Shown: positions 10,126-47,686 of the stretch, one piece after another | Layout: the number at the start of each line of letters is the position of its first letter | How positions within the stretch are numbered: the stretch's first letter is position 1 | NCBI GenBank assembly: GCA_020850695.1 | Contig: JADZEF010000043.1 | Span: forward strand, 1-48,107 | Source: Planctomycetaceae bacterium | GTDB taxonomy: Bacteria > Planctomycetota > Planctomycetia > Planctomycetales > Planctomycetaceae | Length of the DNA: 48,107 nucleotides | Direction: 5' to 3' | Notes under the pieces: generated by a model | Told to the model about the DNA's origin: nothing | Seen by the model: the letters and a program-made list of their open reading frames with translations, nothing else | The model's database searches: none | Translations under genes and position numbers: made by a program

Positions 10126-10222
10126 TTGTGACCGGGGGATTCCCGCCGATTCTGCATTGCGGGATTGTCGGACGTTCCCCGGTCCGATGTCGGCCCGAAT
10201 CTGACCTCCCCAGACAAACCGC

Positions 10223-10831
10223 ATGGACTCCCAGGCTTCGGTGACGGCGTGGATCGCCGATCTCAAAGCGGGCGAAGCCGGAGCTGCCGAGCAGCTTTGG
10301 GAGCGGTATTTCCATCGACTCGTTGGGTTTGCCCGGCGCAAGCTCGCGTCGTCAGCCCGCCGCGTCGCCGACGAAGAAGACGTGGCGCTCAGCGCTTTCA
10401 AGAGCCTCTGCCTCGGAGCCGCCGACGGCCGGTTCCCCCAACTGTGCGATCGCGACAACCTCTGGCCGCTCCTGGTGGTTCTGACTTCGCACAAGGCCCA
10501 GGATCTGGTGAAGTCCGAGCGTCGACTGAAACGGGGAGGGGCAGGGGTTGCCCGCGCGGAGGCGTCGCGGCCTGCGCTCCAGACCAACGCGGCGGGTCTG
10601 GAAGAAGTTCTCAGCCGCGAGCCATCGCCCGAGTTCGCCACGCTGATGGCCGAGCATTGCGAATCGCTGCTGCACCAGCTCGACCTCCAGCACCGCAAGA
10701 TTGCCGAGTTGAAGCTCGAAGGACACTCGAACCACGAGATCGCGGAGCGCCTGCACTGCGGATTGAGAACCGTCGAACGCCGGCTTGAATTGATCCGCCG
10801 CGTCTGGCAGGAAGCGGGGGAAGGGCGATGA
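10223..10831 (+). CDS. ECF-type RNA polymerase sigma factor (planctomycete Sigma70-ECF group)
   Basis: 202 residues. Region 2 covers about residues 10-80 (AAEQLWERYFHRLVGFARRKL, then DEEDVALSAFKSLC and the LWPLLVVLTSHKAQDLVKSE stretch). Region 4 covers about 145-195, ending in a helix-turn-helix: LEGHSNHEIAERLHCGLRTVERRLELIRRVW. This is the PF07638-like family expanded in Planctomycetota. Such sigma factors are commonly paired with Ser/Thr kinases and often lack an anti-sigma gene; here the next gene on the strand is a kinase, separated by a repeat element of about 165 bp. I infer that the two belong to one signalling unit, with the kinase controlling the sigma factor. Start ATG 10223. Confidence 0.92.
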   Translation: MDSQASVTAWIADLKAGEAGAAEQLWERYFHRLVGFARRKLASSARRVADEEDVALSAFKSLCLGAADGRFPQLCDRDNLWPLLVVLTSHKAQDLVKSERRLKRGGAGVARAEASRPALQTNAAGLEEVLSREPSPEFATLMAEHCESLLHQLDLQHRKIAELKLEGHSNHEIAERLHCGLRTVERRLELIRRVWQEAGEGR

Positions 10832-10885
10832 CATCGGGTCATCCATTCGACGACGGTGTTCTGTCAAAGGTTTACAGGCATTGTT

Positions 10886-42700: not shown

Positions 42701-42927
42701 GGCTCGCGTCACTCGGAGCGAAGTCGCCGGTCGAGGCGGTACGGACCGCATATCTGACGGCTTTGTCGCGCACGCCAACCGAAAACGAGCAGGCCGATGC
42801 GCTCGCGTACCTGGAGAAGCAGCGGGCGGCGAATGCGAACGCGGGGAAGGCGAATCCGGCAGAACTGGCTCTCGTCGATTTGTGCCAGGTGCTTCTGTGC
42901 CTCAATGAGTTCGTCTACGTCGAATAG
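39730..42927 (+). CDS. Planctomycete cytochrome-c/DUF1549/DUF1553 protein
   Basis: 1065 residues; ATG 39730 or the Met at 39742 start a signal peptide (LVIVIALLGLSARVSKVRGA). Domain order: PSCyt1 cytochrome domain with haem motif CVACH (61-65) and a methionine-containing loop ending PRMPYE; DUF1549 (PSCyt2, about 195-400, starting TPIDRFLLHRMEAEGL) with a second possible haem-like CARCHDHKFDP; a beta-sandwich insert (about 490-650) resembling a carbohydrate-binding module; and DUF1553 (PSD1, about 750-1030) ending LCQVLLCLNEFVYVE. The family is hypothesised to act in planctomycete polymer breakdown or electron transfer; function unproven. It normally pairs with DUF1501; none directly adjoins it. 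Ends in TAG. Confidence 0.95.
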   Translation: MDLSMPRLHCQLVIVIALLGLSARVSKVRGADAVSPDHAKRAAVGLDLFRKHVRRILNDRCVACHGRDSIEGGFDLASREGLLKGGDSGKAVVLGQSKKSLLYKLITHAQQPRMPYEEEKLPEAEIRHLAAWIDNEAPYDEPLVAGKEKPDARPWTEKLVSARAREHWAFQPLKRATVPAVQNAEWPRTPIDRFLLHRMEAEGLAPNPPADRRTLIRRASFTLLGLPPTPEDVEAFVRDEAPDAFERLVDRMLASPHYGERWARHWLDLARFAESHGFEHDYDRPTAFHYRDFVIRALNDDLPYDKFLQWQLAGDELEPKDNLALMATGFLAAGVHSTQITANEVEKHRYDEMDDMLATTGTAMLGLTVGCARCHDHKFDPIPQADYYRLLSTFTTTVRTEVELDFDPETYRKAKSAFDVEHAPLVAARERFEKEQLPARLKAWEATRTAAEQPKWILLDLVEFKSAGGATLTRQDDGSLLATGANPQFDTYTLVAHTDRAHITGFRLEALSHPSFVKGGPGRASNGNFDLTDVRLTAAPKNGQGTPVAVRLQNPLATFEQTGLPIKAAIDDNKSSGWAVDPQFGKDHAASFEAAETFGFDGGTILTFTLKFEGNGGHNIGRPRLSLTTGPKPVTLEGSTVPANIVTALGTLPDKRNAAQTAELLAWYRHNDAEWQKLDRVVQDHLAKAPKPNLQKVLISSEGLPAVRLHTQGGDFFPETFFLRRGDTQQKQGAAPAGFLQVMMATPQSASRWKATPPEGAKQSFRRTGMARWLTDTENGAGSLTARVAVNRLWQHHFGRGIVSTPSDFGTRGEPPTHPELLDWLASELILGDVTRPSGTSPSTVDHSPSTVSSTAWSLKRLHKLIMLSAAWQQSSRSDESRSSIDPDNRLFWRQEFRRLEGEVIRDALLAVSGRLDERMLGPGTLDEGMLRRSIYFTMKRSQMISMMQVFDQPEPLSGVGDRPSTTIAPQALMLLNNPQVREHARRFALRLASLGAKSPVEAVRTAYLTALSRTPTENEQADALAYLEKQRAANANAGKANPAELALVDLCQVLLCLNEFVYVE

Positions 42928-43010
42928 AATCAATGTGCTGACCGATCGCACGACTCGTCTACGCCAACCGCAACCCGACTCTGCACATCCTGGATGCTGA
43001 TCGATTTCCG

Positions 43011-43240
43011 ATGCTGACCTATCGAGCGATGTATTAGTTCATCAGTGGCGGCGTGCATGCGGAAGTGCTGGACTTTCCGGGAGTGATGTCATGCGCTGGA
43101 ACGCTTGAGGATGCGCGAAGAATGTTTCAGGGGGCGCTCGTCGATATGGCAGAAACGGCACTTCTGACGGGAGAGGCGCTTCCCATTCCCGATCCTTCAC
43201 GAACGGACCCATCGTCTGGCCTGGAAGAGCCCATTCACCT
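43011..43240 (+). pseudogene. hicB: hicB antitoxin remnant (TAG at codon 9)
   Basis: From ATG 43011 the frame reads MLTYRAMY, a TAG at 43035-43037, then FISGGVHAEVLDFPGVMSCA, GTLEDARRMFQGALVDMAE, TALLTGEALPIPDP and LEEPIHLII. This is the HicB partial RNase-H-like fold: FPG turn, the E-A helix, and the terminal GE-x-(I/L)-P-x-P. The stop inside the first strand cuts the protein; the GTG at 43053 could at best give a truncated form. The frame runs on past 43240 without a normal end and overlaps the hicA remnant in another frame. HicB would neutralise HicA and repress the operon. Confidence 0.8.
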
Positions 43241-43430
43241 TATCATCCAGGCAGCGACTGCTGAAGCACCTCAGGGCCGTGGGTTGCCGGCTGCTTCGAG
43301 ATGGGGGTTCTCACTCCATTTGGGAGAATCCTGCCATCGGCCGTCGCGTTCCGATCCCGCGTCATCGGATGACTACACCGCCGCCGCGATCTGTCGCCAG
43401 TTGTGAGTTCCTGAACCGGCTCCGGGCTGA
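43241..43430 (+). pseudogene. hicA: hicA toxin remnant (frameshift plus near-terminal TGA)
   Basis: Frame of 43243: RQRLLKHLRAVGCRLLRDGG then SHSIWENPAIGRRVPIPRHR, the double-stranded-RNA-binding-like fold of HicA mRNA interferase with its catalytic His in GGSHS. Around 43366-43370 the frame changes; the continuation DDYTAAAICRQL is in the frame of 43368. After CRQL comes TGA (43404-43406), then VPEPAPG and a TGA at 43428. Family members usually read R-E-I-D-D and C-R-Q-L-G, so I infer a small deletion (about 7 nt) and a GGA-to-TGA change. No HicA start codon is seen either. Inactive. Confidence 0.8.
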
Positions 43431-43462: not shown

Positions 43463-43951
43463 TCACGCATCGTCGGTGTCGGCTAGCGAGCGGCGCGACT
43501 CCGCAAGTTGCTCTGCCTCAAATATCAGCAAGGCATCGGTCCAGCGTTTGCGCAGCATCCCGCATGCGACGAACCACAAGGCGGCCACGCCCAGTCCGGC
43601 CGTGATGCCCCAGAAGAGAGACGGATCAACTCCCTCGAACGGTCCGTTCACCCCGCTCGAGACGGCGGCGAACAGCAGCATGGCTCCCAGAAAGAGGCAG
43701 CACAGCCCGGCTTGACGCTCCTGATCGACCCGATCGCGCAGGAACCCAAGCCACTCGGCAATCGCCCACCACGTGAAGGCGAGGACGACGAAGAGGCCGC
43801 CAAGCACGGCGAATGCGCTGGACGCCGGCGTGCGCAGCGCGTTGACGATCGTGAAGACGGAGAGGCCTCCCAGCAGCGTCGCGACCCCGAAGTTGACCAG
43901 AAAGAAGGCCGTCCGCATGCTGCCGTTGCTCCGATCCATGAGGGAAGACAT
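43463..43951 (-). CDS. Four-helix membrane protein, unknown function
   Basis: About 162 residues from ATG 43951 (alternatives ATG 43939 and 43918; AGGA immediately before the first). The frame is open to 44239, but the upstream part reads as non-protein. Four hydrophobic helices: FFLVNFGVATLLGGLSVFTI, SAFAVLGGLFVVLAFTWWAI, AGLCCLFLGAMLLFAAVSSG and LFWGITAGLGVAALWFVACG. Between helices two and three is a basic loop RDRVDQERQ. The C-tail is charged. No domain recognised. It stands between the hicBA remnant (opposite strand) and the SPFH gene. Confidence 0.7.
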   Translation of the reverse strand: MSSLMDRSNGSMRTAFFLVNFGVATLLGGLSVFTIVNALRTPASSAFAVLGGLFVVLAFTWWAIAEWLGFLRDRVDQERQAGLCCLFLGAMLLFAAVSSGVNGPFEGVDPSLFWGITAGLGVAALWFVACGMLRKRWTDALLIFEAEQLAESRRSLADTDDA

Positions 43952-44240: not shown

Positions 44241-44264
44241 CACGGGCAGGAGTGCCCGTGCTAC
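44241..44264 (-). repeat. REP element (CACGGGCACTCATGCCCGTG family), copy 5
   Basis: Minus strand: GTAG, CACGGGCA, CTCC, TGCCCGTG. A single copy, with the TAG of GTAG being the stop codon of the SPFH gene ending at 44261. Confidence 0.85.
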
Positions 44265-45916
44265 CTTTTCGTCGGCGCTTCGCCCGGTGACGCGTCCCGC
44301 GCCATCTTCCCCATCATCGTCTCGCTGAAGCCTTTCAGGTCGGTCCAGAATGTTCCCTGGCCCGCATACAACAGGTTCAGTTCGACCGTTTCGGGCAGGC
44401 CCGTCGCGAAGATCCACTGGTTGTACGCTTCACCCGAGCCGAAGGCATCGACCGCCATTTTGAACTTCTCGGACTTCGCCTGCTCGAGCAGCTTCTTCGA
44501 GCTCGCCTTTGCTTCCCCCAGCGTCACCGACGCCTGCGCGTCGAGCTCGGCCGTCTCCTTGTCGATCTTGGCCACCAGTTGAGTCGTCTCGGCCTTCGTC
44601 TGCTCCGCTTCCTTCTGCCCCTCGGCCATCTGCTTCGCAACGAGCTTCTCGGTCTCGACCCGCGTCCGCTCGGTCTCCAGCTTGACCTTTTCCTTTTCCT
44701 CCGCGAGCGTGCCCTGCGTCTTGGTCGTAATCTGCTCCTGCTCGCGGGTCAGTTTCAACTCTTCCGCGATGTACGAGTCCTGGATCGGCAGCCGCACTTC
44801 CTGCGGGATGTAAATGTGTCGCACCAGCCCGTACAGCAGGCTCACTTCCTTCTCCTCCAGCACCTTCTTGAAGTTCTCCGACGCCTTCAGCTGGAATACC
44901 TGCCGGGAGTCGCCGACCAGCAGATCGACCGCCCCCAGCTTCGAACCTTCGTTGCGGCAGATGCTTTCGATCTGCGGGAGCACCACCTTCTGTTCGACCG
45001 AAGCGATGTTGCCGAAGCGGCGGATGACGTTGGGCGCCTGATCCGGCATGATGCCCCAGATAGCGGTGAAGTCCATGTGAATCGTGAACCCGTCCTTCGA
45101 CGGAAACGCGATGCCGCTGTTGTCGTCGGCGATCATCGGCTCCCCGCTGGCGTCGAGGGCCACGTCCCCCGCTTTGTCCAGCACGAGGTTCGCGGTGACG
45201 CTGTTCTCGCGGTATCCGACCTTCACCACGTCGACCTGCTGCTCGCGCGGGTTGATGAGATAAAGCCCCGGTTGAAGGACCTTGTCCTGAATACCCGACG
45301 TCCCCTGAGTTGCCAGGTTGTCGGTCAGGTTAGTGACGACGCCGACATAGCCCGACGGCACATTGACCCACCCGCCATGCTTGATCTGCCCGCCGCCGGA
45401 ATCGGTTGCCTCTTCCTTGACCACCTTCACTTCGTAGCCATACGAGTTGATGCGGTAGCGTCCCGGGGGAAGCGGCTTGCGCAGAATTCCCTGGTGCTTC
45501 GTCGAGCCGATGTCGCCGTCGACGAGGAACTGACCGGACGAGAGAGGGGCGCCCATCTTGCTCGTGACGATGCCGACTTCGCCCGGTTCGATGATCAGGT
45601 CCTTCACCAGCGTCCGTTCCCACCACAGCGGGTTGTAGAAGTGACGCCCGGGGCCGACCATCTGCTCGAGCACGCCAATCTCGGCCGGTTCGCCTGAGTC
45701 TTCGACCTTTGCAAAGCTCCCCGAGGCAGCCGGAGGTCGCGATCCCGGCAGGAGCGGAAGCGGCGGCCCCTTGTAGCGGAGCTGCAGGCTGTAGCCTTCA
45801 TCGACGTAGATCCGGTTCCACGTCCACTCGTAGCAGAACCACAGAAACCCGGCGAGCATCCCGCAGGCGATCGCAATGAAGGCGCCGTTGCGGGGAATGG
45901 GAGAGTTGGTCGTCAT
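44261..45916 (-). CDS. SPFH-domain (band 7/flotillin-like) membrane protein A
   Basis: 551 residues. A single N-terminal membrane helix (about 12-33, GAFIAIACGMLAGFLWFCYEW) anchors a large domain. The region with GYVGVVTNLTDNLATQGTSG, VLQPGLYLINPREQQVDVVK (about 190-230) and the following beta/alpha part to about 370 is the SPFH core. A long Glu/Lys/Ala coiled coil (about 385-485) follows, then a conserved-looking tail with AYNQWIFATGLPETVELNLL. Related proteins oligomerise into membrane microdomains that organise proteases or transport. The second SPFH gene lies upstream, 147 bp away, in the same direction, suggesting a hetero-oligomer. Stop TAG is part of a REP element. Confidence 0.9.
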   Translation of the reverse strand: MTTNSPIPRNGAFIAIACGMLAGFLWFCYEWTWNRIYVDEGYSLQLRYKGPPLPLLPGSRPPAASGSFAKVEDSGEPAEIGVLEQMVGPGRHFYNPLWWERTLVKDLIIEPGEVGIVTSKMGAPLSSGQFLVDGDIGSTKHQGILRKPLPPGRYRINSYGYEVKVVKEEATDSGGGQIKHGGWVNVPSGYVGVVTNLTDNLATQGTSGIQDKVLQPGLYLINPREQQVDVVKVGYRENSVTANLVLDKAGDVALDASGEPMIADDNSGIAFPSKDGFTIHMDFTAIWGIMPDQAPNVIRRFGNIASVEQKVVLPQIESICRNEGSKLGAVDLLVGDSRQVFQLKASENFKKVLEEKEVSLLYGLVRHIYIPQEVRLPIQDSYIAEELKLTREQEQITTKTQGTLAEEKEKVKLETERTRVETEKLVAKQMAEGQKEAEQTKAETTQLVAKIDKETAELDAQASVTLGEAKASSKKLLEQAKSEKFKMAVDAFGSGEAYNQWIFATGLPETVELNLLYAGQGTFWTDLKGFSETMMGKMARDASPGEAPTKR

Positions 45917-45970
45917 GGTTGGAATCCGATGAGTAAGCGGATTGATGGAGTCAGTTTCAACCTCGAGAGT

Positions 45971-46040
45971 GCCCGGGCCTGAATCTTTGCGAGGCCCGGA
46001 GCTCGCGTGAGGACCGGGCCTTCCCTTCGGTCAGACCCGG
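45971..46040. repeat. Hairpin repeats between the two SPFH genes
   Basis: GCCCGGGCCT and AGGCCCGGAGC (45971-46002) form a stem, and a related ACCGGGCCT with its partner AGACCCGG follows to 46037. The repeated core is CCGGGCC. The stems fill the 147-bp spacer and could act as an mRNA processing or attenuation structure between the genes. Confidence 0.5.
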
Positions 46041-46063
46041 CCACCCGACGCGAACGGTCGGCC

Positions 46064-47686
46064 TCACTTCGGTGCCGTCGCGCTGGCCGCCCTCGTCTCC
46101 TGACTCCTGACTCCTGTCTCCTGACTCCTGCCCTTCGTCCCCTCAAACCCCTCGAACACCCGCATGATCGGGCTGTCGGCCGTGTTGGCCATGATCCGCT
46201 TGTACGACGGCGCCAGCTTCTGCAGCATCACGAACCGGGCGAACTGCCCGCCGTCGCCGTTGAAGGCTTCGACCGCCGTCTTCCAACCCGCCGCATCGGC
46301 CTCATTCTGGAACCGCACGACGTCCGCCTCGGCCTTCCCCTTCGAGACGATCGCCGCCGCCTCGTCCTTCGCCGCATCCAGCTTGAACTGGGCAACCGCC
46401 TTCTTCTCTTCCGCCTTGGTGACGGCCACTTCCTGCTCCTGGATTGCGGCGGTCGTCAGCTTCACCACCGCCTGCTGAGACTTCACCAAAGCTTCCTTCT
46501 GCTTGATCATCTCGCGTTCGATGGCGAGCTTCTGCTCGGACGCCTGCTGCAGGATCTGCTGCTGGTATTGCTTCTCCTGCTGCTTGGCGATTTCACGGTC
46601 ACGGACAGGTGACGCAATTTTTTCGGGCGGGCGGATCCGTGTGATCAACGCCTGGATGATGTCGACTCCCATCGGCTCGCATGCCTGCCGCATCTCCTTT
46701 TGAAACTCTTCCTGGAAGATGCTGCGGGTCTCGCCCTGGATGAACTCGCGACCCAGTTCGTTCGAGCCTCGCAGCCGGCAGAAGCTGCGGGCGTTGGGCA
46801 TGATCACCTTGCGGATGATCTCTTCGTCGATGGGGTCGAACGGATCAATGACCCCCTTGTCCCCTTGCTTGAACTCGTTGTACGTGACGTAAACCTCAGC
46901 CGCCTTCTCCGAGTGAATGCGGAACTCGATCACGCCGTCGAGGCTCACCCAGAATCCATCCTTCGAGGGGAAACCCATATCGCGATTTTCGGCCAGGTTG
47001 TAGCGCTGGCTGCGGCAATCGACCAGGCCGATCCGCTGCTCGTAGGGGTTGATGTAATACGTCCCCGAATCGAGCGTCTCTTCCTGCACGCCGCGGTAGC
47101 CCTTGGGCACCAACAGCTTGTTGGGGTCGGGAGCGAGCGGGCCGGCGAGGTTCGTCACGACCCCCTTGAAGCCGCCGGGGATCGTCACCGGGGCTTTGCG
47201 TTCGAGCTTGAAGAGGTACGGATGGATGGCGTATCGGCCGGGACGCAGCACGCCGGGGACGATGCCTTTGGACGTCGGTTCGCCGTTGGCATCGACGTGG
47301 GCGAGGAACTCTCCGTAGGGGAGTTCGTCTCCAACCAGGCTCACCCGCACGCCCACTTCGCCGTCGCGGATCACTTCCTGCGGGAGGACAGTCCAGCTCC
47401 AGTCGAAGGGGTTGTAGAAGTAGCGTCCTTCGGTGAGGAACCAGGACTGCACCCCTTTGTATTCGGCGTTCTCCTTCGTCCCGGGAGCGACCTCCTGATC
47501 GTTGGGAAGGTCCTTGCCGCTCTTCTTGGTGAGGATCGCCATCGAACCCGTGGGGACGTCGATGCGGCACTGGGTATACATCGTCCAGGCGGCCGTCACG
47601 GCGATGACGCCGCCCGCCAGCGCGGTGAAGAACCAGCGTCCGTTGCGGGGACGTTCGTCCGGATTGAAGACCCGTTGTTTCGCCAT
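46064..47686 (-). CDS. SPFH-domain (band 7/flotillin-like) membrane protein B
   Basis: 540 residues; GGAAG lies before ATG 47686. Membrane helix about 18-38 (WFFTALAGGVIAVTAAWTMY), then a large N-terminal region and SPFH core (about 165-360) with GGFKGVVTNLAGPLAPDPNK, GVQEETLDSGTYYINPYEQR and GFPSKDGFWVSLDGVIEFRI. The coiled coil (about 370-480) is Gln/Lys/Glu-rich (KQQEKQYQQQILQQASEQK). Same layout as protein A, only moderately similar in sequence, so an old duplication. The last about 20 residues (RSQETGVRSQET...) are encoded by a CAGGAGT-type tandem repeat, and probably were added when a repeat overlapped the original 3' end. No strong promoter is seen upstream. Confidence 0.9.
   Translation of the reverse strand: MAKQRVFNPDERPRNGRWFFTALAGGVIAVTAAWTMYTQCRIDVPTGSMAILTKKSGKDLPNDQEVAPGTKENAEYKGVQSWFLTEGRYFYNPFDWSWTVLPQEVIRDGEVGVRVSLVGDELPYGEFLAHVDANGEPTSKGIVPGVLRPGRYAIHPYLFKLERKAPVTIPGGFKGVVTNLAGPLAPDPNKLLVPKGYRGVQEETLDSGTYYINPYEQRIGLVDCRSQRYNLAENRDMGFPSKDGFWVSLDGVIEFRIHSEKAAEVYVTYNEFKQGDKGVIDPFDPIDEEIIRKVIMPNARSFCRLRGSNELGREFIQGETRSIFQEEFQKEMRQACEPMGVDIIQALITRIRPPEKIASPVRDREIAKQQEKQYQQQILQQASEQKLAIEREMIKQKEALVKSQQAVVKLTTAAIQEQEVAVTKAEEKKAVAQFKLDAAKDEAAAIVSKGKAEADVVRFQNEADAAGWKTAVEAFNGDGGQFARFVMLQKLAPSYKRIMANTADSPIMRVFEGFEGTKGRSQETGVRSQETRAASATAPK
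46094..46131. repeat. Tandem repeat (GACTCCT/CAGGAGT units) inside the SPFH B gene
   Basis: Units TCTCCTGACTCCTGACTCCT then GTCTCCTGACTCCTG. In the minus-strand gene this reads as GAGTCAGGAGACAGGAG and encodes repeats of S-Q-E-T/R-S-Q-E-T at the C-terminus. The unit has the purine-rich character of the window's intergenic repeats. Confidence 0.75.

Follow-up and report, generated by a model that had tools for sequence, protein, structure and literature searches.

The window analysed here, a stretch of 48,107 nucleotides from a Planctomycetaceae bacterium, carries on its forward strand, at 43011-43430, sequences related to both genes of a hicBA toxin-antitoxin pair. The antitoxin gene hicB comes first and the toxin gene hicA after it, the reversed arrangement of the small-HicB type (Class 2 hicBA). 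Upstream, a DUF1549/DUF1553 gene ends at 42927; downstream, an orphan gene on the opposite strand ends at 43463. The flanking genes (1065, 551 and 540 codons) are all open and have their expected Pfam domains. From the ATG at 43011, frame 1 translates as MLTYRAMY*FISGGVHAEVLDFPGV...EEPIHLIIQAA, while the hicA portion lies in frame 2 (RQRLLKHLRAVGCRLLRDGGSHSIWENPAIGRRVPIPRHR); after a frame change within hicA, frame 1 resumes with DYTAAAICRQL*VPEPAPG* (asterisks denote stop codons). A residual open frame comprises HicB without its first 14 residues, followed by out-of-frame hicA and then by the last hicA residues. The features are collected in Table 1.

Table 1. Remnants and lesions of the hicBA locus (positions in the window)
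Feature	Position	Strand	Details
hicB (antitoxin) remnant	43011..43255	+	codons 1-81 and part of 82; ancestral gene ~94 codons; read-through alignment to family HicBs
In-frame TAG, hicB codon 9	43035..43037	+	AAA or AAG in the five aligned relatives
Residual open frame, GTG start, 117 aa	43053..43406	+	HicB from residue 15, out-of-frame hicA, last hicA residues
hicA (toxin) remnant, main piece	43249..43368	+	profile positions 3-42 (RQRLLKHL...GGSHSIWENP...IPRHR)
Junction of net 49-nt deletion	43255..43256	+	nucleotide alignment and hicA offset; placement uncertain by a few nt
Net 7-nt deletion, shifts hicA frame	43369..43370 (approximate)	+	nucleotide alignment
hicA remnant, 3' piece (DYTAAAICRQL*VPEPAPG)	43371..43430	+	runs to TGA 43428-43430
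In-frame TGA, hicA 3' piece, residue preceding VPEP	43404..43406	+	mostly G, D or E in relatives

No RNA element was matched in Rfam between 42400 and 44300. An 18-nt near-repeat (83%) links 42936-42953 with 43012-43029 in the hicB start region, 76 nt further on, and could be due to chance or be the trace of a duplication. Further downstream, two adjacent SPFH/Band 7 genes (44264-47686) form a pair that is kept in the nine genomes of the family that were checked. In nine relatives, the DUF1553 gene is not found near the SPFH gene (flanks to ~1.5 kb). The orphan gene is absent from every other sampled genome of the family, which leaves no empty or intact counterpart of the site for comparison.

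Lesions

Four lesions are spread over the pair. Two are nonsense changes, the other two are deletions that shift the frame, and neither gene can yield a full-length product. Nucleotide alignment to intact homologues, as the original prediction had proposed, placed both deletions and both stops: the TAG and the TGA lie where they had been described, and the frame change expected near 43367 is present at about 43369, where it corresponds to the net 7-nt deletion. The out-of-frame junction between hicB and hicA, which had been counted as a further lesion, also exists, but it is not a lesion in itself, since hicA is out of frame with hicB in the intact relatives as well and in most of them overlaps the hicB stop (mostly by 4 nt). 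What sets the window apart is the distance between the genes. Among the 61 intact loci, which come from a survey of the best 80 of 103 relatives, hicA is offset from the hicB start by 274-287 nt, 36 of them having 281 nt; in the window the offset is 232 nt, so that about 49 nt are missing. According to the nucleotide alignment with intact relatives, this deletion took the C-terminus of hicB, the hicB stop and the hicA start, and it is thus the deletion, not the change of frame, that constitutes the junction lesion. Because ribosome-binding site matches are just as poor in 28 relatives, we do not count its loss among the lesions as a fifth one.

Homology and classification

When the lesions are read through, both proteins are readily recognized. 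HicA matches the Pfam family HicA_toxin (PF07927) at E=7.2e-11, above the cut-off, with the GGSHS motif retained; its main piece, which carries this match and the conserved histidine, scores 60 bits against a family HicA profile. For HicB, the Pfam matches, PF21748 and PF15919 (UPF0150, HicB_lk_antitox), are weak and below the cut-off, and none of them is to a DNA-binding domain. HicB homologues are found in 11 other genomes of the family, strong ones in ten, and the ten best relatives share 51-68% identity with the read-through, led by G010 (E=3.1e-31, 68% identity over 81 residues) and G082 (E=3.0e-30, 62% identity). HicA in turn matches its counterpart in G048 at E=2.3e-21. The strong protein signal claimed in the original prediction is thereby borne out, with similarity to relatives far above chance for both reconstructed proteins. 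The HicB subfamily has no match in plasmid records, and the HicA read-through no sequence match among solved structures.

Class 2 hicBA modules have the order hicB before hicA, a HicB of 63-103 codons without a DNA-binding domain and a HicA of about 60 residues (Gerdes, 2024, PMC10865869). The window pair resembles them in gene order, in its small HicB devoid of such a domain and in the size of HicA. Its genes are adjacent or overlapping in this order, as in the 61 intact relatives, the HicA domain has the conserved glycine/histidine motif, and hicB measures 85-98 codons, mostly 94, in the 61 intact loci of the survey (best 80 of 103 relatives). It differs from them in that neither gene is open from start to stop, given the TAG, the TGA and the two deletions, and neither HicB nor HicA can be translated in full from the window copy. 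Open two-gene copies occur in six genomes of the same family (G082, G015, G013, G086, G048 and G062).

Decay stages in relatives

The survey, anchored on HicB, covered 85 distinct loci from many phyla, drawn from the best 80 of 103 relatives and for the most part from draft genomes. Within this set, both genes are open at 61 loci, hicB is open with hicA broken or undetected at 20, both are lost at four, the window included, and hicA alone is open at none. These counts fit a decay in which the toxin goes first, as seen through a HicB-anchored search. A planctomycete locus recovered by a HicA-started search, G217:C55 (L132 / L204), runs contrary to this, with a frameshifted hicB and an open hicA, and is a possible exception to toxin-first loss; its hicA has several unusual residues (RKRS for REGG).

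Damaged copies of the window's HicB subfamily also occur in other genomes of the same family. Three genomes have retained an open hicB next to a truncated, stopped or frameshifted toxin, an earlier stage than that of the window copy: in G010 (isolate SP200), hicA stops after a few codons; in G037 (isolate MB_PLM_1), it lacks a start and contains an internal stop; in G021 (isolate MGR_bin14), it is frameshifted. In G083, the end of hicB is lost and hicA is undetected. Among 392 evenly sampled genomes of the phylum, five clearly have the subfamily, and in four of these one gene or both are damaged. It is conceivable, but in our estimate improbable, that this subfamily repeatedly loses its toxin first while the solitary HicB is selected as a guard against incoming HicA, with the window representing a late stage at which the guard role is over.

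Elsewhere in the window's own genome, a hicBA from a different subfamily has decayed as well (L005, contig C350, ~1260-1700): its hicB is open and its hicA is frameshifted by a net ~8-nt deletion, as judged by eye; three further hicA genes in this genome are open. Within the complex I operon, five genomes of the family have a hicBA in the gap that separates nuoC from nuoD: the window's genome (G000:C243, ~10150-10850, L003), G015 (L043), G037 (L041), G086 (L045) and G062 (L047). Since the HicB type of the first differs from that of the other four, this gap may have been filled at least twice. Of the 30 family loci examined, most have no hicBA motif there.

Interpretation of the locus

The locus is almost certainly a pseudogenised Class 2 hicBA module. 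Its homology to intact genes spans the disabling lesions, and this reading is supported by the damaged copies of its subfamily in G010, G037, G021 and G083, together with the decay of a different hicBA on contig C350. All evidence is consistent with the relic originally predicted, with at least four lesions and damage in both genes. As judged from its sequence, the remnant is expected to have no function.

Continued production of a shortened HicB from the GTG at 43053, retained as a solitary antitoxin or regulator, is very unlikely. The HicB core is well preserved, and open hicB genes without an intact hicA are present at 20 other loci among the best 80 of 103 relatives. Against this, the 117-aa frame is missing 14 residues at the N-terminus of HicB as well as its normal C-terminus and continues into out-of-frame hicA; weak evidence also comes from a simple sigma-70 scan, in which no promoter-like site was found. 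We give even a little less credence to an intact hicBA disguised by sequencing or assembly error: the draft genome does comprise 440 contigs, but two substitutions and deletions of 7 and 49 nt would have to fall within 420 nt, next to long genes that have none. The original prediction had likewise rejected sequencing error, and base-call error indeed leaves a 49-nt deletion beside uninterrupted genes unexplained. Recoded stops would leave the deletions unexplained as well, and a neighbouring gene terminates at an ordinary TAG. A fused hicBA (Class 12) arising through the junction deletion can be dismissed, for although fused HicBA proteins, with both domains in one frame, are known (PMC10865869) and the deletion connects the hicB frame to downstream sequence, the deletion leaves the HicA core out of the HicB frame, which is regained by the last residues only.

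For the pseudogenised module, the ancestral unit would have encoded a HicB antitoxin of ~94 residues and a HicA mRNA-cutting toxin of ~60 residues with an overlapping start. The 49-nt deletion may have come early and silenced both partners in one event, and the remaining lesions would then have gathered under little or no selection. As an inference on the order of the lesions, an early junction deletion is plausible, since a single event would take away the toxin start and change the antitoxin. The claim that the loss of both partners was tolerated, drawn from the lesions within the toxin, is true, but it is a weak point: with the toxin start gone through the junction deletion alone, nothing would be left to select for the antitoxin.

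Age of the decay

The window read-through reaches 297 bits when compared with a profile of 59 intact loci; the intact loci, with self and close relatives left out, average 314 bits (sd 27), and ten of them score below the window. In simulations, ~20 random substitutions cost ~44 bits, so that the number of neutral changes accumulated seems to be small. The two nonsense changes alone would suggest 62 substitutions (range 8-225), an estimate that overlaps with that from the score at its low end. The window branch is not unusually long and shows no excess of changes in the first two codon positions, third positions being saturated; with the same saturation, pairwise comparison of positions 1 and 2 versus position 3 gives a slight and inconsistent excess. 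In the coding parts, amino-acid-changing substitutions are not clearly in excess, so that nothing besides the lesions points positively to relaxed selection.

The decay had been predicted to be recent. This holds relative to the divergence of the family, as the conserved residues are mostly retained and the read-through scores lie within the range of intact members; the support is in relative terms only, and no absolute date can be given.

Significance

Mine et al. are said to have described, in 2009, a decaying chromosomal ccdO157 in E. coli. Like the window hicBA, ccdO157 is a chromosomal type II toxin-antitoxin pair decaying through nonsense changes or deletions; unlike it, ccdO157 has a toxin of another family and decays within one species, whereas the stages of hicBA are distributed across species. 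The decay of chromosomal toxin-antitoxin pairs is already established and is discussed in PMC7167474, which cites Mine et al. for ccdO157; the window hicBA is a fresh example of this phenomenon and, on its own, an ordinary dead gene pair. Together with its relatives, it becomes part of a series that runs from loci with both genes open, through those with a broken toxin beside an open antitoxin, to those with both broken, in one subfamily and in several phyla. Such a series would allow the order and rate of toxin-antitoxin loss to be measured outside E. coli.
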